Of a stretch of DNA of 64,000 nt, positions 7,250 through 64,000 are shown piece by piece. The DNA is from Streptomyces sp. NBC_01571 (GTDB taxonomy: Bacteria > Actinomycetota > Actinomycetes > Streptomycetales > Streptomycetaceae). Each line of letters begins with the position of its first letter. Position 1 is the stretch's first letter. The position numbers and the translations under genes are program-made. The notes below the pieces were generated by a model. That model was given only the letters and a program-made list of their open reading frames with translations, was not told where the DNA came from and searched no databases. The stretch is taken from assembly GCF_026339875.1 (NCBI RefSeq), contig NZ_JAPEPZ010000001.1:8990001-9054000 (forward strand). The letters are read 5' to 3'.

Positions 7250-7431
7250 GGCACAGGGTCCCTTCAGCGGGAGGCACGCAAGATTAATTCATAAAATATG
7301 AGCCACGTCTTTGCCGCGTCAACGGGCGCGTGCGCCATTGCTCCTATCTATCGGGGGAGGCAATCGCTCCAGAAGGGATTTTTGCGGGTAAAGCGCGACC
7401 ACTCATCCGATGAAAGTGGCCGGCCGAAGCC

Positions 7432-9822: not shown

Positions 9823-9886
9823 CGACGGGACTCCTGAGGCGGTCTGCGACCTGGGGGTGGACGGGGAGGGGGCAAACCACACCATT

Positions 9887-10996
9887 CTAGGCCGGGAGGA
9901 GTCCCGCGATCCGGGCGAGCCCGCGGAAGGAGTCCAACAGGGCCTCCCGGTCGTAGGTGCTGGTCGTGACGAGCACCTCCTGCGCGCCGGTCTCCTTGAT
10001 CACCGCCGCCAGCTCCTCGGCGACCTGCTCCTCGGTCCCCGCGAGCCCGCCGGTGAGCCCGGACTCGTAGAGGTCCCGCTCCTTGCCGGTCATCACCAGG
10101 CCCTCGACGCGCTCGGCGGGCGGCAGCGGCGGGAAGGTGCCGTGCGTGCGGGAGTACGCCGTCGACCAGGCCTCCGGGATCAGGATCCGGTGCGCGTCCC
10201 GTGACGTCGCCGCGACCACCACCGTGCCGGAGACCACGACGTACGGCTCGCGCGCCCACGCGGACGGACGGAACGCCGCGCGGTAGCGATCGATCCCGCG
10301 CCGCATCCTCTCCCGGTTCTTGAGGTCACCGATGACCAGCGGGAGGCCCGCCCGTGCCGCGATGTCCGCGCCCTCGCCCAGGGCGAGCACGAAGGGCGGC
10401 ACCGTCAGGCCCTCCGGGGGACGCGCGTGCACCCCGGTCGGGGACGTGCCGCGGAACCAGCCCAGCAACTCGTCGAGCTGGGCCGCGAAGTCGGCGGACT
10501 CGGCCGCGTCCTTGTCCCGTCCCAGCGCCCTGCGCACCCCGGGCGTGAACCCGACGGAGCGGCCCAGGCCCATGTCGATCCGGCCGGGGAAGAGGGCCTC
10601 CAGCACACCGAACTGCTCGGCCACGACCAAGGGTTGGTGGTTCGGCAGCATCACTCCTCCGGTGCCGACCCGGATGGTCCGGGTGGCGGCGGCCACCGCG
10701 GCGGCCAGCACCGTCGGGGCGGACCCGGCGACGCCGGGCACGCCGTGATGCTCCGAGACCCAGAACCGGTGGTAGCCGAGCCGCTCGAGCTCCTGGGCCA
10801 GGCGGACGGTGTCGCGCAGCGCCTCGGCGGCGTCGTGCCCCTCGCGGGTACGGGAGCGGTCGAGGACGGAGAAGCGCACGCCCGCCCCGGCCGGACCCTC
10901 CTCCCGCGAGACGCCCGGCCGCTCCTGGCCGTGCGCCACCGCCCCGGAGGGGACGGCTCCTGCCCCGGTGCCGGTCTCGCTCTTCTCGGTCGTCAC
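9887..10996 (-). CDS. Luciferase-like (LLM class) flavin-dependent monooxygenase
   Basis: About 369 residues. An FMN/F420-dependent oxidoreductase of the bacterial luciferase fold; substrate unknown. Visible core: RFSVLDRS, HRFWVSEHHG, IRVGTGGVMLPNH, EQFGVLEALFPGRIDMGLGRS and GTEEQVAEEL, the standard LLM order. The proposed GTG at 10996 has GGAG about ten bases upstream; 11005 or 11113 are possible longer starts but would add a low-complexity leader. The short UvrA paralogue follows on the same strand after about 65 bases, so the two may share a transcript. A 200-base gap separates it from the divergent FAD dehydrogenase gene. Confidence 0.85.
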   Translation of the reverse strand: MTTEKSETGTGAGAVPSGAVAHGQERPGVSREEGPAGAGVRFSVLDRSRTREGHDAAEALRDTVRLAQELERLGYHRFWVSEHHGVPGVAGSAPTVLAAAVAAATRTIRVGTGGVMLPNHQPLVVAEQFGVLEALFPGRIDMGLGRSVGFTPGVRRALGRDKDAAESADFAAQLDELLGWFRGTSPTGVHARPPEGLTVPPFVLALGEGADIAARAGLPLVIGDLKNRERMRRGIDRYRAAFRPSAWAREPYVVVSGTVVVAATSRDAHRILIPEAWSTAYSRTHGTFPPLPPAERVEGLVMTGKERDLYESGLTGGLAGTEEQVAEELAAVIKETGAQEVLVTTSTYDREALLDSFRGLARIAGLLPA

Positions 10997-11222
10997 TGTG
11001 CTCACTCTCCACTGCGGTTTCCATGATCCGCCCGCTCTCCTGGACGGGCAAGGCAAGGCTGATCTCCGCGGTGTGCGTCGGTTCGTGAACCACCACGGCT
11101 TCTGGTCCAACACCGATGCCGCCGCAGTGTTTCCGGGGTGCTACCGACGGTAACAACACGGGTGTCGCAGCCACACCAGCGGCGTCTCCCGCACCTCACG
11201 TACCCCCTACGGAAGGCAGCCC

Positions 11223-13004
11223 ATGGAGAATTCTGTGTCCCCCACCGTGATCAGCAGACGCCGGGCCCTGACGGCGGCGGGCGGAGTGCTGGCCGGTGCC
11301 GCCCTCGCGGCGCACGCGGTACCCGCCTTCGCGGCCGGGTCGTCGGACGCGGACGCGATCGTCGTCGGCGGCGGGCTCGCCGGGCTGGTCGCGACGGCCG
11401 AACTGGCCGCCGCGGGCCGCAAGGTACTGCTTCTGGACCAGGAACCCGAGACCAACCTGGGCGGACAGGCCTTCTGGTCCTTCGGCGGTCTCTTCCTGGT
11501 CGACTCCGACGAGCAGCGTCTGATGGGCATCAAGGACTCCCAGGAACTGGCGTGGCAGGACTGGCTCGGGGCGGCCGGATTCGACCGCGGCGTCGCAGAC
11601 CCGACCGGCCAGGACCACTGGGGCCGCAAGTGGGCCGAGGCGTACGTGGACTTCGCCTCGGGGGAGAAGCGGTCCTGGCTCTACGGGCTGGGCGTGCGGT
11701 GGTTCCCGATCGTGGGCTGGGCGGAGCGCGGCGGCGGGCTCGCGGACGGGCACGGGAACTCGGTACCCCGCTTCCATGTCACCTGGGGAACCGGTCCCGC
11801 CGTGGTCGAGCCGTTCGAGAAGCGGGTACGGGCCGCGGTCGCGGACGGGAAGGTGACCTTCAGGTTCCGGCACCGCGTCGACGAGATCGTGCGCACCGGC
11901 GGCACCGTGACGGGGGTCCGGGGCGCGGTCCTCGAACCGAGCACCGCGGCGCGCGGCAAGGCCAGTTCGCGCACGGTGGTCGGAGACTTCGAACTCCGCG
12001 CTCCGGTCGTGATCGTCACCTCGGGAGGCATCGGCGCCAACCACGACCTCGTGCGGCAGAACTGGCCGGCCCGGCTCGGCACCCCACCCAAGTTCATGGT
12101 CACCGGTGTGCCGGCCCACGTGGACGGCCGGATGCTCGGGATCACCGAGGCGGCGGGCGGGCGCATCGTCAACCCCGACCGCATGTGGCACTACACGGAG
12201 GGTCTCAGGAACTACGACCCGATCTGGGCCAACCACGGCATCCGTATCCTGCCGGGACCGTCGTCGATGTGGTTCGACGCCACCGGCAAACGCTTCTCCG
12301 CCCCCGACCTCCCCGGCTACGACACCCTCCACACGCTCAAGTCGATCACCGACACGGGCTATGACTACTCCTGGTTCGTGACCACGCAGAAGATCATCGC
12401 GAAGGAGTTCGCGCTCTCCGGCTCGGAGCAGAACCCGGACCTCACCAACAAGGACGTCTGGATGCTGCTCTCGCGCATCTGGCAGACCCCCGAGCCGATC
12501 GAGAAGTTCAAGAAGAACGGGGTCGACTTCGTCGTCGCCGCCACGCTGTCCGAACTGGTCACCGGCATGAACAAGCTGACCGGTGACGGACTGATCGATC
12601 TCACCGACCTCAAGCGGCAGATCGACGCGCGGGACCGGGAGATCGACAACCCCTACACCAAGGACGTCCAGGTGATGGGGATCCGCAACGCGCTCGCCTA
12701 CACCGGGGACTCGCTCAGCCGCACCGCGCCGATCCACAAGATCCTGGACGCCGGCGCCGGCCCGCTGATCGCCGTACGGCTCAACATCCTCACCCGCAAG
12801 ACCCTGGGCGGTCTGCAGACGGATCTCTCCGGCCGCGTCCTGGACGCCGGCGGCACCGCGATTCCCGGTCTGTACGCGGCCGGTGAGGTCGCGGGATTCG
12901 GCGGCGGGGGAGTGCACGGATACCGCTCGCTGGAAGGCACCTTCCTGGGTGGCTGCCTGTTCTCCGGACGACAGGCGGGACGGGCGGCGGCCGCCGCGAT
13001 CTGA
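11223..13004 (+). CDS. Secreted FAD-binding dehydrogenase (fumarate reductase/KstD-like fold)
   Basis: 593 residues. The N-terminus has a twin-arginine signal (SRRRALTAAGG, residues 11-21, then an Ala-rich core ending AFAA). It is followed by an FAD Rossmann motif GGGLAGL at 49-55 and a later GGGGVHGYRSLEGTFLGG block that completes FAD binding. The fold is that of fumarate reductase-type flavoproteins and 3-ketosteroid dehydrogenases, but no substrate can be named. GGAAGG lies six bases before the ATG. It would act outside the membrane or in the wall space, where an electron partner is needed; none is encoded alongside. Confidence 0.82.
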   Translation: MENSVSPTVISRRRALTAAGGVLAGAALAAHAVPAFAAGSSDADAIVVGGGLAGLVATAELAAAGRKVLLLDQEPETNLGGQAFWSFGGLFLVDSDEQRLMGIKDSQELAWQDWLGAAGFDRGVADPTGQDHWGRKWAEAYVDFASGEKRSWLYGLGVRWFPIVGWAERGGGLADGHGNSVPRFHVTWGTGPAVVEPFEKRVRAAVADGKVTFRFRHRVDEIVRTGGTVTGVRGAVLEPSTAARGKASSRTVVGDFELRAPVVIVTSGGIGANHDLVRQNWPARLGTPPKFMVTGVPAHVDGRMLGITEAAGGRIVNPDRMWHYTEGLRNYDPIWANHGIRILPGPSSMWFDATGKRFSAPDLPGYDTLHTLKSITDTGYDYSWFVTTQKIIAKEFALSGSEQNPDLTNKDVWMLLSRIWQTPEPIEKFKKNGVDFVVAATLSELVTGMNKLTGDGLIDLTDLKRQIDARDREIDNPYTKDVQVMGIRNALAYTGDSLSRTAPIHKILDAGAGPLIAVRLNILTRKTLGGLQTDLSGRVLDAGGTAIPGLYAAGEVAGFGGGGVHGYRSLEGTFLGGCLFSGRQAGRAAAAAI

Positions 13005-13699
13005 AACCCGGCTTACGGATCGCCGGAGGCGACCTACCGGCGGTCCGTACGCCGGCCCGCCGCCGGTCCACCGGCGATCCCTACGTCGGCCCGCCGCCGG
13101 TCCCGTGCCCGCCGTCGACCTGCCGGCGGCCAGTATGGAGCTCCGCCGCCTGTCCGTACGCCAGCCTGCAGCCGGTCCCGTGCCCGCTGTCGACCTGTCG
13201 GCGGCCGGTATGGCGGTCCACCGCCTGTCCGCCGCCTGTCCGCCGCCGGTCCGCGACCGACTCGCCGCCGGTCCGTCCGGCGGTCTGGACGTCGAGGGCG
13301 GGTCGGCCGCGGGTCGGCGTACAAAACGCCACACGCACCGCCGCAGGACCGGTCCGCGAGGCGTTCTGTGCGCCGGTCCGTCCGGCAGTCCGCGCGGCGG
13401 TCTGGACGTGGTGTCTCCGGCGTCCCGTGCGCGGGCCCGTCCGGCGGTCCGCGCGGCGGTGTCTCCCACAGTTCCTACACGGTCGGTCCGGTCCGGCGTG
13501 TTCCGGAGGCGGATCTCGTGGACCGGGGGCGCGCGCGGGTGCGCGGAGCGCGGGGCGCCACGTCCATGCGGCCGATCGGCGGTGGCTGTGCGACTAAGGG
13601 AACCGCGATCGGGAAATGGCATTCCCGGAGCCCTTGCCGCCGGCTCGCACGGACGCGGCGGCAGGAACGGCTCCACCCCCACGAAACGCAGGAGTGCCC
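13005..13699. repeat. Gene-free 695-bp region with degenerate 75-bp-period repeat
   Basis: No credible gene on either strand. Two 60-base blocks, 13097-13156 and 13172-13231, match at all but about seven positions with a 75-base period. The rest, to about 13475, is made of variants of the words CCGCCGGTCC and GGCGGTCTGGACGT. Long open frames exist here only because of the GC-rich words. The last 15 bases hold the AGGAG site of the aldo/keto reductase gene. Confidence 0.7.
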
Positions 13700-53232: not shown

Positions 53233-54060
53233 CTACGCGTCGCTCCCGCGGCCGATCAACAGCCGCGCGCGGAACGCGGCGGTGAGGGCTACGAATCGGG
53301 TGTTGCCCACCGCGTAGCGCAGGAACATTCGCCGCGGCTCCTGGACCAACCGGTGGAACCATTCAAGGCCGGCGCGCTGCATCCACCGCGGTGCCCTGCT
53401 GCGGAGTCCCGCCACCACGTCGAAGGATCCGCCGACACCGACCATCAGGGCACAACCCAGGTCCTTCTGCCGGCGAGCGAGGAAGTACTCCTTGCGTGGA
53501 CTCGGCACGGCGAGGAACAGGATGTCCGGCCGGGTCTCACGGACGGCTGCCACGACCAGCGCCTCCTCGCTCTCCTCCCAGTAGCCGCTCCGGTATCCGA
53601 CGACCTCGACGCCCTGCCCGGCGGCGATGCGCGCGGTCTCCTCGACCACCTTCGCCTCGGCGCCCAAGAGGTACACGCGGTAGCCGTTGCGCGCGGCACT
53701 GCGCCACAGCGCCAGCATGAAGTCGATGCCCGCCACGCGCTCGGGCAGGGGGCTTCCGAGGAGGCGGCCGGCCCACACGACCGACTGCCCGTCCGCGCTG
53801 ACGAGCGAGCACGAGCGGATGATGCGCGCCAGTTCCGGGTCGTCGTGCGCCTGGACGATCTTGGCGGCGTTCAGCACGACGTGCTGGTGGGGGCCACCGT
53901 CCTCGATCAGCGCCTCGGCGGCAGCCACCGACTCCTCCAGCGTGAGCGGGTGGACGGGGAGTCCGCACACCGTGACCGGCCGACCCGGCCCTACCCGTCC
54001 GGTCCGCGCGTTCCCGTTCCGCGACGAGGTCGTCCGCACGTCGCACCTCCGTTCCGTCAT
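53233..54060 (-). CDS. WecG/TagA/CpsF-family glycosyltransferase
   Basis: 275 residues. Members transfer ManNAc or ManNAc-uronic acid to lipid-linked GlcNAc at the start of wall polymers or enterobacterial antigen. Family landmarks: VTVCGLPVHPLTLEESV, VVLNAAKIVQAHDDPELARII, SADGQSVVWAGRLLG with the conserved Asp, ERVAGIDFM, YLLGAEAKVVEETA, and GSFDVVAGLRSRAPRWMQRAGLEWFHRLVQEPRR. ATG at 54060 overlaps the stop of the upstream glycosyltransferase gene (ATGA). With a WecC-like dehydrogenase at the far end of the locus, ManNAc-uronate is a plausible donor sugar. Confidence 0.9.
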   Translation of the reverse strand: MTERRCDVRTTSSRNGNARTGRVGPGRPVTVCGLPVHPLTLEESVAAAEALIEDGGPHQHVVLNAAKIVQAHDDPELARIIRSCSLVSADGQSVVWAGRLLGSPLPERVAGIDFMLALWRSAARNGYRVYLLGAEAKVVEETARIAAGQGVEVVGYRSGYWEESEEALVVAAVRETRPDILFLAVPSPRKEYFLARRQKDLGCALMVGVGGSFDVVAGLRSRAPRWMQRAGLEWFHRLVQEPRRMFLRYAVGNTRFVALTAAFRARLLIGRGSDA

Positions 54061-55154
54061 TGCTTCTGTTCCAGACCCAAGTTCCGCCAGAACCGCACGA
54101 ACTCCTCCTCGATGCGGTCGAATTCGTACTGCGGGCGCAGTGCGTTCCAGGCCTCCTGCTGGCGCCGCCGGATCCCCTCCAGGTCGTCTCCGCACGCCTC
54201 GAGGAACCCGGCCACCGAGGCGACCGAGGCCTCGACAGGCTCCACGCACCCCTTGAAGAGCTCGGCGCTCCCCGGTGAGGGCGTCGCCGCCACAGCGCAG
54301 CCCTCCTGGAGCCCTTCCAGGAGCACAAAAGGGAGCCCCTCGACCCAGCGGGCCGGAAGGACGAACACGTCGACCCCTGACCAGAACGCCCGGACGTCCG
54401 ACAGATCGAGGACCCCGAGGTCCTCGTCCACGCACGTCATCCGGGTGAGCGGTACGTCGTGGCGCATCCCGGCGACCCGAAACTCGACACCGACGCCCTG
54501 TCGCTTCAGCCTCTCGACCGCATCGCAGACGAGGTCGAATCCCTTGACCCGGCTCATGGTGCCGATCCAGCCGACCCGCAGCACGCGGGAGGAGACGGGC
54601 TCCTTCGAAGACGGAACTGCTCGGGGCGCCGGATTCCTGAGCACGGTGACCGACGCCGCACGGCAGCCACTGACGCGCAGATCGCGCGCGACCGCCTCGC
54701 TCAGCACGATCCAGTGGGCTCCGCCCAGCAAGGTTCGCAGCGCGCGGTTCCTGGCGAGTCGGGCGGGCAACTGCGCCCCATGCAGATGCAGTACCACGGT
54801 GGAGTTGACGATTTTGGCGAGGACGATCAGGAAGACATCACGGAGCAGGGGCAGTCCCCACTGCGAAACCGGCAGGTAGACGGCCCTCGGAGCCGTCCCG
54901 ATCAGCAGATACGCGCCTTTGCTCAGGGCCGCGAGGGTGGCCCAGGCCTTGGCGGGCCAGGACGCCGCGAACCGGTCGGATCCGACCCGGCTCGCGGAGA
55001 GGGAGATGACCGCTGGCACGTGGCAGCGACGCGTCAGCAGAGGAGTGAAGAACTCGGCTGCGCGGCCCATTCCGCCCAGACGCGGACTGTGCCTGAAAAC
55101 AAGGACGGCCGACGGGGCCGCCTGCCATGGAAAACGTGGGCGATTGGGAGGCAT
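54057..55154 (-). CDS. Family 4 glycosyltransferase
   Basis: 365 residues. GT-B fold retaining transferase. The acceptor side includes RHSPRLGGMGRAAEFF. The donor domain has VGWIGTMSRVKGFDLVCDAVERL, SDVRAFWSGVDVFVLPARWVEGLPFVLLEGLQEGCAVAAT (the E-x7-E region) and a C-terminal helix. ATG at 55154 has GGAGG eight bases upstream; a longer start at 55217/55220 has no ribosome site. Coupled to the WecG/TagA-type gene by a four-base overlap, the two form a minus-strand unit of the polysaccharide locus. Confidence 0.88.
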   Translation of the reverse strand: MPPNRPRFPWQAAPSAVLVFRHSPRLGGMGRAAEFFTPLLTRRCHVPAVISLSASRVGSDRFAASWPAKAWATLAALSKGAYLLIGTAPRAVYLPVSQWGLPLLRDVFLIVLAKIVNSTVVLHLHGAQLPARLARNRALRTLLGGAHWIVLSEAVARDLRVSGCRAASVTVLRNPAPRAVPSSKEPVSSRVLRVGWIGTMSRVKGFDLVCDAVERLKRQGVGVEFRVAGMRHDVPLTRMTCVDEDLGVLDLSDVRAFWSGVDVFVLPARWVEGLPFVLLEGLQEGCAVAATPSPGSAELFKGCVEPVEASVASVAGFLEACGDDLEGIRRRQQEAWNALRPQYEFDRIEEEFVRFWRNLGLEQKQ

Positions 55155-55372
55155 TCCCCATTCCTCCAACTGTGGGACGCGGAACTTGAGATCCGGGAGG
55201 AAATTATGTGGAGTCATCACAGCACTTGGTTGGCAGGGAGAACCAATACAACACTTCTGGCTGCTCTCTTCACACGATATGCATAGCCAACCATTGCGCG
55301 CGTGCGGCGCCGAGAGATCGGTCGATCGAGTACGCGTGATATGAATCGAGTAAAGACGGCGAAAGGAAAAGT

Positions 55373-56758
55373 GTGAGCGTTTTCCGCGATGCTCCGCAGA
55401 TTTATTCCGTCTTCGCCGCGGTATGTGCCGCAGCGGTTCTCCTGCTGGCTTTCTGCCTGCGAGGGGCGGGCTGGCTGCTCTGGGGAACCTGCCTCGTGCC
55501 GCTGTTCCTGCTGAGCAGGGGCTTCGCGACGGTGGGCGTCTCTCCCTTCTACGTCATGGACGTCGTCGCGGTCGTCGCGCTGCTCGCGACCCTGCGTATG
55601 TGGGGGCCCCGGGTGCTCTCGGAGAGGCGGTTGCGCTGGTTCCGCGCCATCGCGGTGGGCCTGGCGGTCATGACGGCGCAGGCGGTGTACCGGGGGGTGG
55701 CCGCGGGCTACTCAGAGGCATTGAAGGGCGTGATCCTCGGGTTCTACCCGCTCCTCGCATGGTTCGCCGCGACCTGGATCCTCACGAGGCCCGTCGAGGA
55801 AGCCGTTCGCCTGAGATGGGTTCTGTATATGCCAACCGCCGGGGTCTTCGTGGAACTGATCCTGGGCAGCCCACTGCCGGCTGCCGCCAGGGGGCTCTAT
55901 CTGGCGATCGCCGGCGCGTTCAGTGTGCAGATGAGGCATCTGGGAAAGAGCCGACTGCTCCTGTGGACGCTGGTCGGAGCCGCCGTGATGACCGCCATCG
56001 CGAGCAAGCGGGGTCCACTCCTTGCGGTTGTCGCGGCCATGGCCGCGACCGCCCTCGCCAGTCGGTCGAGCCGCCGGCGTACCGTCCGCTGGCCGGTGGT
56101 GTCCTGGAGCTTGGCCACCCTAGGGGTGATCGCTGTGCTGGGTTTTTCCCTCTCCGGCGAATCCGTCTCCGACATGCCCGTGGTCGGCGGCCTCGCGGCA
56201 CGAGTGTCACGTTCCCACGACCCGAACAGCGAAGCCGGCGCGAACGTCGAACTTCGGATGGAAATGTGGCAGGAGGCCCTGAGGGTCGTGCGGGAAGACC
56301 CACTCCTGGGTGCGGGGGCGGGGCACCCCATCGACGTGATCGGACACGGAGAACACCTGAACGCACCCCGGGCGGGCCCGCACAACTCGTTCATCGGATA
56401 CATCTACTACCTGGGCTGGCCCGCGGGCATCGCCATGGCACTGCTGGTCGTCGCCACGCTGCGCCGGACCTGGCGTGCCCGGCATCATCTGGTAGCCGCT
56501 TCCTGGTTCGGGGCGACGGTGGGTGTCGCCGTCACCGCTTGCACGAACGTCGCCTTCGAGACCACCTACATCGGACTGCCGTCATGGCTGGTGCTGGCCT
56601 GTGCCTACGCGTTGGTCGGCGTCCCGGAGACACGGACGGCCGCCGACGAATCCCCGCCCATCGCCACCACCAGTCGGCGTGCCCCTGCAACAAGCCGCTC
56701 CGTTGCCGGAATCGGGCGACCGCAGCACACATCTCCGGGAGTGCCAGCCCGTTCCTGA
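55373..56758 (+). CDS. O-antigen ligase/polymerase-like membrane protein (Wzy candidate)
   Basis: 461 residues with about ten hydrophobic spans (for example AAAVLLLAFCLRGAGWLLWGTCLVPLFLL, VVAVVALLATL, AIAVGLAVM, LVGAAVMTAIA, GIAMALLVVATL). The large loop typical of the Wzy_C family carries MEMWQEALRVVREDPLLGAGAGHPID followed by GPHNSFIGYIYYLGWPAG. In Wzx/Wzy pathways it polymerises flipped repeat units outside the membrane. GTG at 55373 with AAAGGAAAA upstream. Divergent from the glycosyltransferase unit across an A/T-rich gap of about 220 bases that holds both promoters. Confidence 0.85.
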   Translation: MSVFRDAPQIYSVFAAVCAAAVLLLAFCLRGAGWLLWGTCLVPLFLLSRGFATVGVSPFYVMDVVAVVALLATLRMWGPRVLSERRLRWFRAIAVGLAVMTAQAVYRGVAAGYSEALKGVILGFYPLLAWFAATWILTRPVEEAVRLRWVLYMPTAGVFVELILGSPLPAAARGLYLAIAGAFSVQMRHLGKSRLLLWTLVGAAVMTAIASKRGPLLAVVAAMAATALASRSSRRRTVRWPVVSWSLATLGVIAVLGFSLSGESVSDMPVVGGLAARVSRSHDPNSEAGANVELRMEMWQEALRVVREDPLLGAGAGHPIDVIGHGEHLNAPRAGPHNSFIGYIYYLGWPAGIAMALLVVATLRRTWRARHHLVAASWFGATVGVAVTACTNVAFETTYIGLPSWLVLACAYALVGVPETRTAADESPPIATTSRRAPATSRSVAGIGRPQHTSPGVPARS

Positions 56759-56986
56759 TCGGCGAACACCCCTCGGGCCGCCGCTCGAAATTGTTCACAA
56801 AAATTCGGTGCCCTCCCGCTGTCGAACACCGTGAGTAATGCAGCCGCATGGGGGACATGCGGCCGCGACCGTGGGTAATCAAAGGAATTTTTCCTACGCT
56901 GTACTCAGGGGAGACGTAAACCGGCGGTGCGGAAAAGGCGAACGCGGCAAGTCGTCAAATCACCCGCGTTACTACAAGGAGTGCAT

Positions 56987-58033
56987 GTGACAGCCAGAAC
57001 GGCTCTCATCACCGGAATCACTGGCCAGGACGGCTCCTATCTTGCCGAGTTGCTCCTGAACAAGGGGTACACCGTCCACGGAATCGTCCGGCGTGCCTCC
57101 ACGTTCACCACCAGCCGTATCGAGCACCTCTACCAGGATCCGCATGACCCGGAAGCCCGGCTGTTCCTGCACTACGGCGATCTGACGGACGGCAGCAGGG
57201 TCACAGGTCTCCTCGAACGCGTACAGCCTCACGAGGTGTACCACCTGGCCGCCCAGTCGCACGTGCGGGTCTCCTTCGACGAGCCCCTGTACACCGCGGA
57301 CACGACGGCGCTGGGCACCACCCGACTGCTGGAGGCCATCCGGACCACCGGCCTGTCCTGCCGCTTCTACCAGGCGTCCAGTTCGGAGATGTTCGGTGCG
57401 TCACCCCCACCGCAGCATGAGGGAACCCCGTTCCACCCGCGCTCCCCATACGGGGTGGCGAAGGTGTACGCGTACTGGATCACCCGCAACTACCGTGAGG
57501 CGTACGGGCTCTACGCGGTCAACGGCATTCTCTTCAACCACGAGTCGCCGCGCCGCGGTCCCACGTTCGTCACCCGCAAGGTCGCCATGGCCGCCGCGCG
57601 CATCAAGGCCGGCCTGCAGGACACACTGCACCTCGGAAACCTCGACGCGCGTCGTGACTGGGGCTATGCCGCGGAGTACGTCGAGGCGATGTGGCTGATG
57701 CTGCAACAGAAGGAGCCCGTCGACTATGTGATCGCCACGGGCAGCAGCTACAGCGTGCGCGACTTCGTCGAGTACTCCTTCGCCCACGTCGGACTCAACT
57801 GGCAGGAGCACGTGCGCTTCGACGAGAGGTATCTGCGTCCCTCCGAGGTCGACGACCTGGTCGGCGACGCGTCGAAGGCTGCGCATGACCTCGGCTGGCG
57901 GCCCACTGTCCGGGCACCCGAACTGGCACGGCTGATGACGGACGCGGAACTCGACGTGCTGCTACGCGGCGACGGTGCCGTAGCGGCGACGGTGCCCGCG
58001 CCGGCCCAGGCCCTGACCGTTCACGGGCGCTAG
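56987..58033 (+). CDS. gmd: GDP-mannose 4,6-dehydratase
   Basis: 348 residues, typical length. Converts GDP-D-mannose to GDP-4-keto-6-deoxymannose, the entry to fucose, rhamnose, perosamine and colitose. Visible: NADP Rossmann motif [14 protein letters not shown] (10-23) with the Arg pair of NADP-dependent Gmd (VRRASTF), [18 protein letters not shown] (catalytic YxxxK), the substrate loop [16 protein letters not shown] and [20 protein letters not shown] at 56987 with AAGGAG five bases upstream. First gene of the co-directional unit gmd, flippase, ColD-like, ColC-like. Confidence 0.95.
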
Positions 58034-58045
58034 GCGGGACGGACG

Positions 58046-59437
58046 GTGGGAGTACCGCACCCCTCGAACGACCTGAGCACCGGCGGACAGCCGTCCCCAG
58101 TTGCGGCGACGGTTCCCCCAGCGCGCGCTCCCAGCAGGACGGGAGGCGGACCGCAGCCGCGCATCCTCGGTACCGTCACCCGGTCGGTCGGCGCGCGGGT
58201 GGTGACACTGCCCGTCTCCGCTGTGACCAACCTGGCCCTGGCCCACACCGTGGTCGGCGCGGTGGGGGTGCCCGGCTATGCACAGTTCACCCTGGTGGCC
58301 ACCTTGCCGGCAGTGCTGCCTCTCACGGATCTGGGCGCGGGAGCCGCCATCACGGAAGCCGTGGCCCGCGACACCTCGCACGACCAGCGGCTGGTGCGCG
58401 GGACGGTCCTGTCGTCGGCTCGCAACCTGATGTGCGCGGGAGCGGTCATCGCCGTCACGGGTGTGACCCTGGCCCTGTTCGGGACGTGGGAGGCGTTGTT
58501 GGGGGAGGCTGCGCAGCCGAGCTCCGACCTCACCCTGGCGGTCGCATCGGTGCTGTTCGGATGCAGCATGCCGCTCGGGCTGAGCAGGTCCGTGCTGTTG
58601 GCCGTGAACCGCAACGACATCGCGTTCCTGCTACAAGGTGCGGGCAGCGTCCTGTTGTTCGCACTCGTGCTGCTCGCCGCAAGCCTGGGCGCCCCCACGG
58701 GCGCGTTCGTCTCCGCCGTTTTCCTCTCGCAGTGCCTCGTGAACGCCGCTGGCGGGGTGCTCGCCGGCCGCATCCTCGGTATGCCGCTGCTGCGCACGAC
58801 GCTGGGCAGCGTCCGCGCGTCGGCGTGGAAGGACCGGGCGTCCATCGCGCACCTCGCACTCCCCATGACCGTCGTCACCGCGGCCACGGCCGTCGCCTAC
58901 GCCACCGACCGGCTGGTCCTCAGTCACACGGCCGACGCCGCTGCGGTGGCCGGATATTCGGCCGGTGCCCAGTTCTTCGCGCCGGCGAGCAGCCTGCTGG
59001 GCGCGGCCGGGCTTCCGTTGTGGGCCATGTTCGCCCGGCAGCAACGCTCGCCCGGCGCACCCAAGCGCGAACTCGCTTGGTTCACCGGCTGCTTCGCGGC
59101 AGGCGGCGTCGTCGTGGGCGTCGGCATCGTGCTGCTCGGACCCGTCGCCGGTACCTGGATGATGCACGGGCAGATCCGGGTGGGGACCGGTCTCATGGCC
59201 GCGTTCGCCGCACTGCTGTTCGTGCAGGCGGTCGCCTGCCCGGCCACCATGTGGTCGATGGACGCGGCGGGACTGCGCTTCCAGGCGATCACCTTCAGTC
59301 TCATGGCCACGGTGAACCTCGCCGTGTCCATCCCCCTGGCGCGGCTGGGAGCCGAAGGGCCCGTCATCGGCTCGGTCGCCTGCTACACCGCGTTCGTGCT
59401 CGTCCCCACTCTGTTCAGAGCCTTCCGCCGGACATGA
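58046..59437 (+). CDS. Polysaccharide flippase (Wzx/MATE-like)
   Basis: 463 residues, about twelve membrane spans with few charged breaks (LVRGTVLSSARNLMCAGAVIAVTGVTLALFGTW; LLFALVLLAASLGAPTGAFVSAVFL; CFAAGGVVVGVGIVLLG and others). The pattern AQFTLVATLPAVLPLTDLGAGAAITEAVAR and the Asp-Arg DRLVLSH segment suit polysaccharide exporters that flip undecaprenyl-linked repeat units. GTG start 12 bases after gmd; its stop overlaps the next gene (ATGA). The context with a Wzy-like polymerase supports Wzx. Confidence 0.85.
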   Translation: MGVPHPSNDLSTGGQPSPVAATVPPARAPSRTGGGPQPRILGTVTRSVGARVVTLPVSAVTNLALAHTVVGAVGVPGYAQFTLVATLPAVLPLTDLGAGAAITEAVARDTSHDQRLVRGTVLSSARNLMCAGAVIAVTGVTLALFGTWEALLGEAAQPSSDLTLAVASVLFGCSMPLGLSRSVLLAVNRNDIAFLLQGAGSVLLFALVLLAASLGAPTGAFVSAVFLSQCLVNAAGGVLAGRILGMPLLRTTLGSVRASAWKDRASIAHLALPMTVVTAATAVAYATDRLVLSHTADAAAVAGYSAGAQFFAPASSLLGAAGLPLWAMFARQQRSPGAPKRELAWFTGCFAAGGVVVGVGIVLLGPVAGTWMMHGQIRVGTGLMAAFAALLFVQAVACPATMWSMDAAGLRFQAITFSLMATVNLAVSIPLARLGAEGPVIGSVACYTAFVLVPTLFRAFRRT

Positions 59438-60654
59438 CGGCGACGCCGTCGGTGAGAAGGCACTACCGCGCGTCGTCGCAGAGGTTTCCCGTGATCAAAC
59501 TGATCAAGTCCGCCTTCCACCACGAGGCGGAGACCAGGCGTGCCCTGGCCGACTTCATCCTCCAACAGGACCTGCTGAGCATGAACGGGCAGTGTCGCAA
59601 GTTCGAGGAGGCCTTCGCGGCCAGACAAGGGCGCCGCCACGCTGTGTTCGTGTGCAACGGCAGTGTGGCCAACCTCTTGCTGATCCAGGTGTTGGTGAAC
59701 CAGGGCCTGCTCCGGCGGGGAGACCGGGTCGGCGTCTCGGCCCTGACCTGGCCGACCAATGTCATGCCGCTGATCCAGCTCGGTCTGAAACCCGTCGCGA
59801 TCGACTGCGCCCTCGGCACCCTCAATGTCTCGCCGGAGAACCTGGAAAGGCACGTGTCCGGTCTGCGGGCAATGTTCCTGACGAACGTCCTAGGGTTCTG
59901 CGACGATCTGCCCGCGGTGCGGGACCTGTGCGATGACCACGGCGTTCTGCTGCTCGAGGACAACTGCGAGGCTCTGGGTTCCAGAGTCGCGGGTGCCCTG
60001 CTCGGCAACTTCTCCCTCGCCTCGACGTTCTCGTTCTTCGTCGGCCACCACCTGTCCACCATCGAGGGCGGGATGGTCTGCACCGACGACGACGACCTGT
60101 ACGAGCGGCTGGTGATCTCCCGGGCGCACGGCTGGGACCGTAACCTGGCACCGGACAGGCAGCACAGGCTGCGTGCCGAAGCCGACGTGGACGACTTCCA
60201 CGCCAGGTACACCTTCTACGACCTGGCGTCGAACTTCCGGCCCACTGAGATCAACGGATTCATCGGCAACCGGCAGATCCGGTCCTGGGACGAGATCGTG
60301 GACGCCCGCGCGGCTCACTTTGCACGCTTCCAGCAGGCCATGGCGAGCAACGGGGACTTCCACCAGTTCGGCCTGAACCACATGGACGTCGTGTCCAACT
60401 TCGCCATGCCCGTGGTCTGCCGGACGCCCGAGATGGCTGAGAAGTACCGCGCCGAGTTCGAGGCAGCCGGGGTGGAAATCCGTCCGGTCATCGCCGGCGA
60501 CATCACGCGGCAGCCGTTCTACCGCCGGTACGTCCCCGAAAGCGTGGAACGCCCGGTGGCCCGTCTCGTCCACACGAACGGTTTCTACTTCGGGAACAAC
60601 CCGGACCTCACCGAGGACGAACTGACCACGCTGTGCGACCTGCTGGGCGGGTGA
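59434..60654 (+). CDS. ColD-like GDP-4-keto-6-deoxymannose 3-dehydratase
   Basis: 406 residues, DegT/DnrJ/EryC1/StrS fold (PLP-dependent). Aminotransferases of this family bind PLP through a Lys before GEGG. Here the block reads FSFFVGHHLSTIEGG, with His205 at that position. This exchange defines the 3-deoxygenating dehydratases ColD and E1 (DdhC/AscC). The Cys motif of the Fe-S enzyme E1 is absent after the active site, favouring ColD, which uses glutamate and PMP to remove the C3 hydroxyl. Gmd two genes upstream makes its substrate, and the next gene resembles ColC. ATG overlaps the flippase stop by four bases. Product predicted: GDP-4-keto-3,6-dideoxymannose. Confidence 0.85.
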   Translation: MTATPSVRRHYRASSQRFPVIKLIKSAFHHEAETRRALADFILQQDLLSMNGQCRKFEEAFAARQGRRHAVFVCNGSVANLLLIQVLVNQGLLRRGDRVGVSALTWPTNVMPLIQLGLKPVAIDCALGTLNVSPENLERHVSGLRAMFLTNVLGFCDDLPAVRDLCDDHGVLLLEDNCEALGSRVAGALLGNFSLASTFSFFVGHHLSTIEGGMVCTDDDDLYERLVISRAHGWDRNLAPDRQHRLRAEADVDDFHARYTFYDLASNFRPTEINGFIGNRQIRSWDEIVDARAAHFARFQQAMASNGDFHQFGLNHMDVVSNFAMPVVCRTPEMAEKYRAEFEAAGVEIRPVIAGDITRQPFYRRYVPESVERPVARLVHTNGFYFGNNPDLTEDELTTLCDLLGG

Positions 60655-60662
60655 GGGGTGTG

Positions 60663-61610
60663 ATGGACCAGCGAGCCAGGATCTACGTGGCCGGTCACAC
60701 CGGCATGGTGGGTGCCGCAGTGGTCCGGCGGCTGCGGAGCGCGGGGTACGACAATCTGGCGCTGCGGACCCGTGCTGAACTCGACCTCACCGATCAGGTG
60801 GCCGTACGGGAGTTCATGGCAGAGGAGCGGCCCGCGTACGTCGTCGACTGCGCGGCCAGGGTCGGCGGCATCAAGGCCAACATGACCTTCCCCGCGGAGT
60901 TCCTGTACGAGAATCTCCAGATCCAGAACAACCTCATCTGGTCGGCCAAGGAAGCGGGAGTGGGCACGTTCCTCTTCCTCGGCAGCTCGTGCATCTACCC
61001 GCGGGGGTGCCCGCAGCCGATGCGTGAGGAGTACTTCATGACGGGCCGTCCAGAACCCACCAACGAGGCGTATGCCTACGCGAAAATCGCCGGGATGAAG
61101 CTGTGCGAGTACATCCACGCCGAGTTCGGGAGGAACTTCGTCTCGTGCATGCCGACCAACATCTACGGAGAGGGTGACAACTTCGACCTGGGCACCTCCC
61201 ATGTCATCCCGGCGCTGGTAAGGCGCATGCATGAGGCCCGCGAGGCCGGTGCGTCCGAGGTGGTGATCTGGGGGACCGGGAACAGTCGCCGGGAGTTCCT
61301 GCATGTCGACGACCTGGCGGACGCGGTCCTCTGGCTGCTCCGCCACCACCGCGGGAGACGGTTCCTCAACGTCGGGACCGGCCAGGACATCTCCATCCGG
61401 GAACTGGCCGAGCGGATCCGGCACATGGTCGGCTTCGAGGGCTCCCTCGCCTTCGATGCCTCGAAGCCCGACGGCATGCCGAGAAAGCTGCTGGACGTAT
61501 CGGCGCTGCACGAGTCCGGTTGGCGTCACCGCATCGAAGTCGACGAGGGTCTGAGACGGACCTGCGACTGGTACCTCACCCACATCACCAGCATCCCGGC
61601 CACAGCGTAG
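60663..61610 (+). CDS. GDP-L-fucose synthase/ColC-like epimerase-reductase
   Basis: 315 residues, extended SDR. Rossmann motif YVAGHTGMVGAAVVRRL (9-25, GxTGxxG), LGSSCIYPRGCPQPMREEYF, the catalytic YxxxK in NEAYAYAKIAGMKLCEYI, and PTNIYGEGDNFDLGTSHVIPALVRR are all typical of WcaG/Fcl enzymes that invert C3/C5 and reduce C4 of GDP-4-keto-6-deoxymannose. ColC is the close relative that acts at C5 and C4 on the ColD product to give GDP-L-colitose. Eight bases after the ColD-like gene, ColC is the better reading; Fcl remains possible if the ColD-like protein is bypassed. ATG with GAGGGGTG upstream. Confidence 0.85.
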   Translation: MDQRARIYVAGHTGMVGAAVVRRLRSAGYDNLALRTRAELDLTDQVAVREFMAEERPAYVVDCAARVGGIKANMTFPAEFLYENLQIQNNLIWSAKEAGVGTFLFLGSSCIYPRGCPQPMREEYFMTGRPEPTNEAYAYAKIAGMKLCEYIHAEFGRNFVSCMPTNIYGEGDNFDLGTSHVIPALVRRMHEAREAGASEVVIWGTGNSRREFLHVDDLADAVLWLLRHHRGRRFLNVGTGQDISIRELAERIRHMVGFEGSLAFDASKPDGMPRKLLDVSALHESGWRHRIEVDEGLRRTCDWYLTHITSIPATA

Positions 61611-61644
61611 GAGGCGTCCGGTTTGCCGGTGAGGCCCTGGGGCG

Positions 61645-62478
61645 TCAGCAGCCCTGTGTGGGGCGTGGCCTGGCCCGCAGCGCGGTGGAGTCGCGGGGCG
61701 TCGTCCTGATCAGGCCCGACTTCGTGGTCGCGCCCCAGGCCTTGCTGACGCCCTGGGCGAGTGGCCACCAGTACGGCTCCAGGCGCAGCGTGGTGCGGCC
61801 CAGGTAGCGGCGCATGACGCGGCGTCCTTCGTCGTCGGGGCACGGATTGGTCACCGTGAGGGAGGAGGGATGGACCCGGAAGCGCCCGAGGACCCGCGGC
61901 AGGTACACCATGCCCCCGTCCTGCCTCAGTCGCAGATGCAGGTCGAAGTCCATGGCGTACCGCAACGCCGGATCGAGCATGCCCACCCGCTGGACGGCAC
62001 TGCGGCGATAGAGGGAACCAGGCTGGCCCACGAAGTTCTGGCCGTACCGGAAGAACCAGGACGCGAAGGTTCCCGGACTCAGGGTGTAGAGGGTCCGGTC
62101 GTCGGCGTCGATGATCGTCAGCCGTCCGTAGGCCATGGCGGCCCCGGGAACCCTGTCCAGTGCCTCGCAGGTCGCGCTCAGGCTGTCCTCGGTGAGCAGA
62201 TCGTCGTCGCCGAGCCAGGTCAGGTACTCCGTGGCGGCCCCCCGCCACCCCTGGTTGACCGCGTTGCTCAGCCCCCGTTCGTTCTCCACGAGGAATCCGC
62301 ACCCGTGGCGCTCCGCCGCCGCGCGCAGTGCGTCGGCCGCCCGGGCGGGGCCGACGACGACGGCCTCGACGGATTCACGCTGGCGCCTGACGGACGCCAG
62401 GCACTGCTCCAGGTATTCCGGACGCTCCCCGTTCGACGGCACCACCAGCCGAACACTCGGAAAGGTGCGAGAACTCAT
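61645..62478 (-). CDS. Family 2 glycosyltransferase
   Basis: 277 residues. GT-A fold inverting transferase: VRLVVPSNGERPEYLEQCLASVRRQ, ENERGLSNAVNQGW, YLTWLGDDDLLTEDSL (the DxD metal motif region), GQPGSLYRRSAVQRVGMLDPALRYAMDFDLHLRL and a cationic tail. It would add one sugar of the repeat unit. It faces the ColC-like gene (34 bases between stops) and is divergent from the WecC-like gene, so it is a single-gene unit inside the polysaccharide locus. Confidence 0.88.
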   Translation of the reverse strand: MSSRTFPSVRLVVPSNGERPEYLEQCLASVRRQRESVEAVVVGPARAADALRAAAERHGCGFLVENERGLSNAVNQGWRGAATEYLTWLGDDDLLTEDSLSATCEALDRVPGAAMAYGRLTIIDADDRTLYTLSPGTFASWFFRYGQNFVGQPGSLYRRSAVQRVGMLDPALRYAMDFDLHLRLRQDGGMVYLPRVLGRFRVHPSSLTVTNPCPDDEGRRVMRRYLGRTTLRLEPYWWPLAQGVSKAWGATTKSGLIRTTPRDSTALRARPRPTQGC

Positions 62479-62727
62479 TGCCTGTGCCCCTTCTGCTCGA
62501 CCTTCTGCCGATGCGCATATGTAGAGCTACACCGAATCGGGTGTCTGGCGCCCCCGACACGGCTGATGCCCGGCAAAAACGTCTTCGGTCGGAACAGCAG
62601 CGGCGTGCTTGCGCCGGAAAGGTGTTACGTCGGTCCATCCTGGCTGGTGCCTTTTCGTTTCCCGTGAAAAACCCTCGGCCACCCTCACCTGCGGCATGCC
62701 CAGGACCTACGGAGAGGATTCTTCATC

Positions 62728-63969
62728 GTGTTCTCCACTGTCTGCGTCGTCGGCCTCGGCTACATCGGCCTCCCCACCGCCGCCGCCCTCGCCACCCACG
62801 GGGTCGACGTCGTCGGTGTCGATGTCAACCCCGTCACCGTCGAACTCATCAACGCCGGCCACGCCCCCTTCGTCGAACCGGATCTGGCGGTGGCCGTCAG
62901 CGGGGCTGTGGCCATGGGCCGGCTGCGGGCGACCGGCGCGCCGGAGCCCGCCGACGCCTTCATCATCGCCGTCCCCACCCCGCTCCAGGAGGACCGCACG
63001 GCGGACCTGTCGTACGTGCGCAGCGCCGCAGCCTCGGTGGCCGAGGTGCTCAAGCCCGGTGACCTCGTCATCCTCGAGTCGACCTCGCCACCCGGCACCA
63101 CCGTCGAGCTGTCCCGGTGGCTGGGCAAACACCGGCCCGATCTGACCTTCCCCCACGATGTGGGCGACGCGCCCGACGTGCGGGTCGCCCACTGCCCCGA
63201 ACGCGTCCTGCCAGGCCGGACGATGATCGAGATCGTGACGAACGACCGTGTCGTCGGCGGCGTGGGCGAAGGCTGCGCCGACCGAGCACGCGTACTCTAC
63301 GAGGTGTTCGCCAAGGGGGAGTGCCTGCTCACCGACGCCACCACGGCGGAGATGGCGAAGCTCAGCGAGAACGCGTTCCGGGACGTCAACATCGCCTTCG
63401 CGAACGAACTGTCCATGGTCTGCGACCACCTCGGCATCGACGCGGGCGACGTCATCGCCCTGGCCAACCGTCACCCGCGGGTGGACATCCTCCGCCCGGG
63501 GCCGGGCGTCGGCGGACACTGCATCGCCATTGATCCCTGGTTCATCGTCGGCATCGCACCCCAGCAGTCGCGTCTCATCCGGCTCGCCCGCGAGGTGAAC
63601 GACGAGCGGCCGGACTATGTGCTCGGCGAGGTCGCCCGGACGGCCGGCCGCTTCAAGGACCCGGTGATCGCCTGCCTCGGTCTGGCCTTCAAGGCGAACA
63701 TCGACGATCTGCGGGAAAGCCCCGCCCTGCACATCGTCACCCAGCTGGCCGAGCGTCAGCTCGGCCAGCTGCTGGTCGCGGAACCGCACATCAGGGAACT
63801 GCCGGACTCACTGCGGCAGACGGGCGTGGCCGAACTCGTCGACTTCACCACCGCGGTGCGGGACGCCGATGTCGTCGTACTGCTCGTGGACCACGATGCC
63901 TTCCGCGGCGTCAAACGGACCGCTCTGCGCGGCAAGGCCGTTTTCGACACCCGCGGCATCTGGAGCTGA
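62728..63969 (+). CDS. wecC: UDP-N-acetyl-D-mannosamine dehydrogenase-like nucleotide-sugar dehydrogenase
   Basis: 413 residues. UDP-sugar 6-dehydrogenase family: NAD motif VCVVGLGYIGLPTAA (5-19), STSPPGTT, AHCPERVLPG, KLSENAFRDVNIAFANELS and the catalytic Cys265 in PGVGGHCIAIDPWF. The PERVLPGRTM and HCIAIDPWF variants match the WecC/ManNAc dehydrogenase branch more than UDP-glucose dehydrogenase. It would make UDP-ManNAc-uronate, a donor suited to the WecG/TagA-type transferase of the locus. GTG at 62728, GGAGAGG upstream. The UDP-GlcNAc 2-epimerase it needs is not in the window. Confidence 0.85.
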   Translation: MFSTVCVVGLGYIGLPTAAALATHGVDVVGVDVNPVTVELINAGHAPFVEPDLAVAVSGAVAMGRLRATGAPEPADAFIIAVPTPLQEDRTADLSYVRSAAASVAEVLKPGDLVILESTSPPGTTVELSRWLGKHRPDLTFPHDVGDAPDVRVAHCPERVLPGRTMIEIVTNDRVVGGVGEGCADRARVLYEVFAKGECLLTDATTAEMAKLSENAFRDVNIAFANELSMVCDHLGIDAGDVIALANRHPRVDILRPGPGVGGHCIAIDPWFIVGIAPQQSRLIRLAREVNDERPDYVLGEVARTAGRFKDPVIACLGLAFKANIDDLRESPALHIVTQLAERQLGQLLVAEPHIRELPDSLRQTGVAELVDFTTAVRDADVVVLLVDHDAFRGVKRTALRGKAVFDTRGIWS

Positions 63970-64000
63970 CGCCGAGTCGCCTGCGGAGGCCGACGCGTCG

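Follow-up and report, generated by a model that had tools for sequence, protein, structure and literature searches.

Colitose is described in the excerpted text of PMC8987622 as a sugar of Gram-negative lipopolysaccharide. Here we examined a four-gene unit (positions 56987-61610) of Streptomyces sp. NBC_01571, located in a 64,000-nt stretch of DNA referred to below as the window (C1:8990001-9054000 of an 11.54-Mb genome in 15 contigs), and compared it with the closest described systems. In the colitose pathway of Escherichia coli O111, Gmd, ColD (WbdK) and ColC (WbdJ) are encoded in one locus with Wzx and Wzy genes alongside, and ColD carries histidine at the position of the lysine that binds pyridoxal 5'-phosphate (PLP); the Streptomyces locus is alike in the three protein families, the histidine and, with a probable flippase, the Wzx and Wzy genes. 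It differs from the O111 locus in that its ColD-like protein and its ColC-like short-chain dehydrogenase/reductase (SDR) are only 31.5% and 39% identical to the E. coli proteins, within the fucose-synthase family the SDR sits on another branch, the host is Gram-positive and the gene order is not the same. We consider GDP-L-colitose the best-supported product of the unit (probability roughly 0.8), and the sugar would then be built into an exported polysaccharide.

With the GDP-L-fucose pathway (Gmd and Fcl/WcaG) the unit shares a Gmd 54% and an SDR 52% identical to the E. coli K-12 proteins, but it adds a gene for a ColD-type 3-dehydratase, and a separate gmd/fcl pair exists elsewhere in the host genome. 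E1 (RfbH), the CDP-4-keto-6-deoxyglucose 3-dehydratase of the paratose, tyvelose and abequose pathways, resembles the ColD-like protein in its DegT fold and in the histidine at the lysine position, but it has a Cys-rich stretch that the window protein does not have and falls outside the ColD clade; the E1 example of S. exfoliatus sits among dTDP-sugar genes. The linear plasmid NZ_CP106799 of Streptomyces HUAS 15-9 encodes a gmd-colD-colC trio (88, 73, and 73% identity) together with homologues of the flippase, the family 2 glycosyltransferase (GT2), wecC, wecB, the bi-domain oxidoreductase, asnB, and a 490-aa open reading frame (ORF) of the window locus; it differs in gene order and in being on a linear plasmid. 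In the HUAS 15-9 annotation the ColD homologue is called an aminotransferase and the SDR a GDP-L-fucose synthase, and both are probably misnamed.

Gene layout and the ColD-like protein

The unit consists of four ORFs, all on the + strand: gmd (GDP-mannose 4,6-dehydratase, 56987-58033; 506.7 bits to TIGR01472, cut-off 415; 54% identity to E. coli K-12 Gmd), a probable Wzx-type flippase (58046-59437), a ColD-type, predicted GDP-4-keto-6-deoxy-D-mannose 3-dehydratase (59434-60654) and a ColC/Fcl-type epimerase-reductase, the probable GDP-L-colitose synthase (60633-61610). With the starts as called, a gap of 12 bp follows gmd, and the next two junctions are overlaps of 4 and 22 bp. The initial annotation had described a tightly packed unit of gmd, a flippase, a DegT-fold protein with histidine at the PLP-lysine position and a WcaG/ColC-like SDR; all four ORFs are real, three of them by protein family and the flippase by hydrophobicity and position. 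Both genes may in fact start later, the ColD-like gene at GTG 59491 and the SDR gene at ATG 60663, because these codons, residue 20 of the DegT ORF and residue 11 of the SDR ORF, are where the proteins of HUAS 15-9 and of most relatives start. With these starts, gaps of 53 and 8 bp would replace the two overlaps, and the histidine at the catalytic position would be residue 186. The alignment with the S. diastatochromogenes protein runs from residue 1.

The DegT-fold ORF passes PF01041. Its residue 205 is histidine (codon CAC at 60046-60048), as the initial annotation had read it, and aligns with His188 of ColD. In a search of the PDB the best matches were ColD (2gms, E 2e-51) and its variants, followed by E1 (4.5e-35), one other putative 3-dehydratase, and then perosamine synthetase (1.7e-23); the solved ColD sequences 3b8x and 2r0t have Asn and Lys, respectively, at the His188 place. 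The histidine is found in 30 out of 30 aligned relatives, so a sequencing error at His205 is unlikely. Across a 42-row alignment, the 34 ColD- or E1-type rows have His at the PLP-lysine position, whereas the 8 aminotransferase-type rows, namely ArnB, a DegT protein of S. exfoliatus, five paralogues from the retrieved loci, and the distant L037, have Lys.

The comparison with ColD-type and aminotransferase-type proteins proposed in the initial annotation placed the window protein with ColD, apart from E1 and the Lys-type proteins. In the careful tree, which includes long branches, E1 among them, E1 and the Lys-type rows fall outside a single 33-row clade (99/97) that unites the ColD-like rows with the ColD of E. 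coli and Phaeobacter. Besides these two ColD, the clade contains a 28-row group that includes the window protein and three rows from Lachnospiraceae/Planctomycetes. Given the 31.5% identity, the window protein appears to belong to a deep sister lineage of E. coli ColD. We compared 20 positions of E. coli ColD, picked partly from recall of ColD structure papers: Trp88, Asp159, Glu162, Ser183, His188, Arg219, Asn248, Arg250, Glu329, and Arg331 are kept in 28 out of 28 close relatives, and S. exfoliatus E1 departs at five of these ten invariant positions. The gmd gene is the second gene upstream of the ColD-like gene, as expected for a GDP-linked substrate. The Cys-rich stretch of E1 was not found in the aligned ColD-like sequence, which scores 175.3 bits against the NCBIfam E1/RfbH model NF011936 (cut-off 423); an E1-type dehydratase is rejected on the basis of the tree, the Cys motif, and the gmd linkage. 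Two actinobacterial DegT-fold genes on other loci (L093 15441-16526 and L094 6158-7339) also encode His at the lysine position, with an E1-like motif.

The epimerase-reductase

As a member of the fucose-synthase family, the SDR (60633-61610) scores 440.9 bits against NF047922 (cut-off 500); the same model gives 455.6 bits for the ordinary Fcl of the host (300-aa matched part), 552.6 for E. coli K-12 Fcl, and 310.6 for E. coli ColC. Its residues S118, C120, Y147, K151, and H190 correspond to S107, C109, Y136, K140, and H179 of E. coli Fcl, which we take to be the catalytic residues of the epimerase-reductase. In two trees, a quick one and a careful one, the SDR falls inside a colD-linked clade of Streptomyces, uncultured actinobacteria, Saccharibacteria, and Patescibacteria (15 rows, 100/99 in the careful tree, from which eight distant SDR rows of the quick tree were omitted as long branches). 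The SDR gene adjoins colD in 14 of these 15 rows, which were gathered via colD, and in L020 gmd intervenes; two pairs of rows hold duplicate proteins (L009/L084 and L019/L087), each pair probably one genome. The patescibacterial ColD-like gene of L020 (2392-3546) has one in-frame stop under table 11, as has a second gene of that locus, and these could be recoded stops or broken genes.

The other Fcl of the host groups with Fcl of other Actinomycetota. It is encoded by a second, divergent gmd/fcl pair (C1:7837583-7839615; L082 9087-11113) beside a homologue of an initiating sugar transferase, probably a separate fucose-type polysaccharide locus. No colD was found on 29 out of 29 short loci of ordinary Fcl, which were the best matches (67 of 246 genomes had an Fcl match); lower in the match list, two genomes (G450 and G592) encode a classical-type ColD close to an Fcl-like gene. 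At position 207 (E. coli Fcl numbering) the residue is Ser, Ala, Thr, or Gly in 15 out of 15 clade rows and Ser or Ala in ColC of E. coli and Phaeobacter, compared with Pro in 30 of 31 ordinary Fcl; this pattern was spotted after the fact, and among other rows Pro occurs in four from colD-bearing loci (L027, L033, L034, and one of two L092 rows), the other nine having Ala or Val.

Linkage and distribution in other genomes

Linkage was counted on 26 close-relative loci of the genome collection (L008-L032 and L036; the more distant L033-L035 and L037 were set aside). A Gmd match of at least 50% is present on 22 of the 26 loci; of the other four, L008 has its start within the flippase gene, L019 and L024 lack a match, and that of L032 is 37%. 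An Fcl/ColC-like match of at least 35% was found on 17 of the 26. In L017, L021, L030, L032, and L036 (about 6180-13499 each) gmd and the ColD-like gene occur with a distant SDR (22-28% identical to that of the window), for which no NCBIfam cut-off was reached among the matches listed; a different GDP-3,6-dideoxyhexose may be the product of these five loci.

At E 1e-60 the ColD-like protein was detected in 2 of 392 sampled Streptomyces (the host and HUAS 15-9), in 1 of 396 sampled Actinomycetota (the host), and in 9 of 294 genomes from the class to which a Saccharimonas genome, itself counted, belongs. Further relatives occur in uncultured actinobacteria, which carry the same gmd-colD-colC trio, and in Saccharibacteria, Patescibacteria, and Bacteroidota. 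In S. diastatochromogenes, colD and colC lie on a contig whose start falls within the flippase gene; the order from flippase to the 490-aa ORF is identical to that of the window locus (89-95%), and both contig ends cut a gene. With E. coli ColD as the query at E 1e-60, 3 of the 396 Actinomycetota gave a match (G450, G592, and G741). Two of them, G450 and G592, are 50% identical to E. coli ColD and have the ColD-like His motif, that is, a classical-type ColD in 2 of 396 Actinomycetota; in G592 the ColC-like, ColD, and gmd genes are adjacent, a classical-type actinobacterial case. G741 (35% to E. coli ColD) has an E1-like motif and was not counted as a classical ColD. Uniqueness in the phylum is thus ruled out by G450 and G592, and on these counts the gene set is rare, not unique.

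Product of the pathway

From the genes, their families, the active-site residue, the phylogeny, and the linkage observed above we infer the following reactions, sugar, polymer, and flippase role. Gmd would convert GDP-D-mannose to GDP-4-keto-6-deoxy-D-mannose. The ColD-type enzyme, using pyridoxamine 5'-phosphate/PLP with His205 in place of the Schiff-base lysine, would remove the C3 hydroxyl to give GDP-4-keto-3,6-dideoxy-D-mannose, and the ColC/Fcl-type SDR would invert C5 and reduce C4 to give GDP-L-colitose. A glycosyltransferase of the locus (candidate at 61645-62478) would transfer colitose to a lipid-linked repeat unit, which probably also contains N-acetylmannosaminuronic acid (WecB/WecC), and the flippase and Wzy would export and polymerize the repeat units. 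The initial annotation had proposed a 3,6-dideoxyhexose, most simply colitose, exported in a polysaccharide, and at the gene level this gains support from the histidine, the ColD clade, the adjacent gmd, the colD-linked SDR, and the polysaccharide locus.

Several observations weigh against GDP-L-colitose as the product. The ColD-like protein is distant from E. coli ColD (31.5%), and 10 of the 20 compared positions are not fully kept in its close relatives, in which Tyr186 is replaced by Val, Ile, or Ala, Ser187 by Gly or Ala, and Phe240 by Tyr or Ile. Identity of the SDR is higher to E. coli K-12 Fcl (51.8%) than to E. coli O111 ColC (39.4%); the NF047922 cut-off, tried as a discriminator of ColC from Fcl, was dropped because the ordinary Fcl of the host (300-aa matched part) also scores below 500. 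The equivalent of Cys109 is missing in 2 of the 11 clade members compared (L009 and L012), and the colD linkage of the SDR clade is partly built in, since its 15 rows were gathered via colD. No Fcl/ColC-like match reaching 35% was found on 9 of the 26 close-relative loci (five with a distant SDR of 22-28%, four with none); because some loci carry only a distant SDR, the ColD-like family may serve pathways to more than one product. On the export side, the ORF at 58046-59437 has no Pfam or NCBIfam match, with Pfam searched even at E 5.

Another GDP-3,6-dideoxyhexose would result if the SDR reduced C4 without C5 inversion, giving a tyvelose-type D sugar, or gave another C4 configuration. The pairing of gmd and colD with a distant SDR in L017, L021, L030, L032, and L036 makes it plausible that the shared keto intermediate leads to other end products, and the window SDR is not an orthologue of E. 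coli ColC, which forms a separate clade with the ColC of Phaeobacter and one actinobacterium (100/100). However, the SDR retains the Ser, Cys, Tyr, Lys, and His of the epimerase-reductase and shares 52% identity with E. coli GDP-fucose synthase, an enzyme that both inverts and reduces, and we regard a different dideoxyhexose as unlikely. Two sugars, with Gmd and the SDR making GDP-L-fucose and the DegT-fold enzyme diverting part of the keto intermediate elsewhere, would account for the top scores of the SDR against fucose synthases; this division of labor seems quite improbable to us, however, as the genome holds another gmd/fcl pair and the trio is thus not needed for fucose, as the SDR lineage lies beside colD or one gene from it in the compared rows (though these were gathered via colD), and as position 207 is non-Pro in 15 out of 15 clade rows and in ColC versus Pro in 30 of 31 ordinary Fcl (a post hoc pattern). 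A perosamine-synthase-type aminotransferase with a 4-amino sugar as product, suggested by the shared superfamily and by the public annotation of the HUAS 15-9 homologue, is rejected as scarcely credible, since the catalytic position has His in place of lysine in 30 out of 30 relatives and the perosamine synthetase score trails that of ColD (1.7e-23 vs. 2e-51).

The surrounding polysaccharide locus

Genes of polysaccharide assembly flank the unit on both sides. Upstream are a GT4-type glycosyltransferase (54057-55220, - strand; PF13692 51.4 bits) and a Wzy-type O-antigen polymerase/ligase family protein (55373-56758, + strand; PF04932 50.3 bits, cut-off 31.7). Downstream are a GT2 (61645-62478, - strand; PF00535 48.1 bits), a WecC-like nucleotide-sugar 6-dehydrogenase, probably a UDP-N-acetylmannosamine dehydrogenase (62728-63969, + strand; PF03721/PF00984/PF03720; 76% to the wecC-annotated gene of HUAS 15-9), and the 3' end of a gene for a WecB-like UDP-N-acetylglucosamine 2-epimerase (63808-64000, - strand, extending to 65136; PF02350 373.7 bits for the whole gene). 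Past the window the WecB-like gene is followed by genes for a bi-domain oxidoreductase, an asparagine-synthase-like protein, the 490-aa ORF, an initiating sugar transferase, a DUF4012 protein, a Wzz-AAA protein, and a low-molecular-weight phosphatase. Within 54057-78097 (window coordinates) we found PF02397, PF13692, PF00535, PF04932, PF02706 with an AAA domain, and the low-molecular-weight phosphatase. By its gene content the trio sits in a larger Wzx/Wzy-dependent polysaccharide locus, the flippase part of which is drawn from hydrophobicity and position. The 490-aa ORF (69578-71050, - strand; L005:6579-8051), which has no Pfam match even at E 5, has homologues in S. diastatochromogenes (89%, cut by the contig end) and HUAS 15-9 (60%).

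The 463-aa product of 58046-59437 is strongly hydrophobic (21 overlapping 19-residue windows over threshold, in about nine blocks), and the HUAS 15-9 locus holds a protein 47% identical to it. Its assignment as a probable Wzx-type flippase is based on hydrophobicity, position, and the HUAS 15-9 homologue. Homologues of the GT2 are located directly upstream of gmd in L009, L011, L012, and L014 (31-39%), 5 kb past colC in the HUAS 15-9 plasmid locus, and in L008 (92%); four other loci gave weak matches only (23-29%). By position alone, the GT2 at 61645-62478 is the best candidate for a colitosyltransferase. The G+C content is 67.5% over 54057-64000 versus 72.1% over window positions 1-50000, which fits acquisition of the locus without proving it.

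Discussion

The initial annotation knew of no well-described actinobacterial case of this pathway. As regards the literature this stands, since no published description was found in the searches made; as regards genomes it has to be qualified, as the trio is present on the HUAS 15-9 plasmid and in uncultured actinobacteria, colD and colC in S. diastatochromogenes, and a classical-type ColD in 2 of 396 Actinomycetota. Actinobacterial colitose is not reported in the excerpted texts of PMC7725333, PMC8987622, PMC12409901, and PMC8204192, and no report of colitose in Gram-positives or Saccharibacteria was among the literature matches listed, which are open-access excerpts with older cell-wall chemistry mostly outside them. 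PMC7725333 predicts sugars by phylum in a figure and names TACK archaea as being without L-colitose; because these archaea are singled out as lacking the sugar, that paper may already predict L-colitose in Actinobacteria.

What the locus offers is known chemistry, a divergent enzyme lineage, and a new host setting. The Streptomyces set, with its relatives in Saccharibacteria, Patescibacteria, and Bacteroidota, would broaden the range of colitose. Genes labeled 'aminotransferase' or 'GDP-L-fucose synthase' in such loci may be misnamed, as a result of which fucose would be over-predicted and colitose under-predicted. On a more novel but unlikely reading, a shared surface sugar could count in attachment or recognition. 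A divergent ColD/ColC pair is now available for enzyme work.

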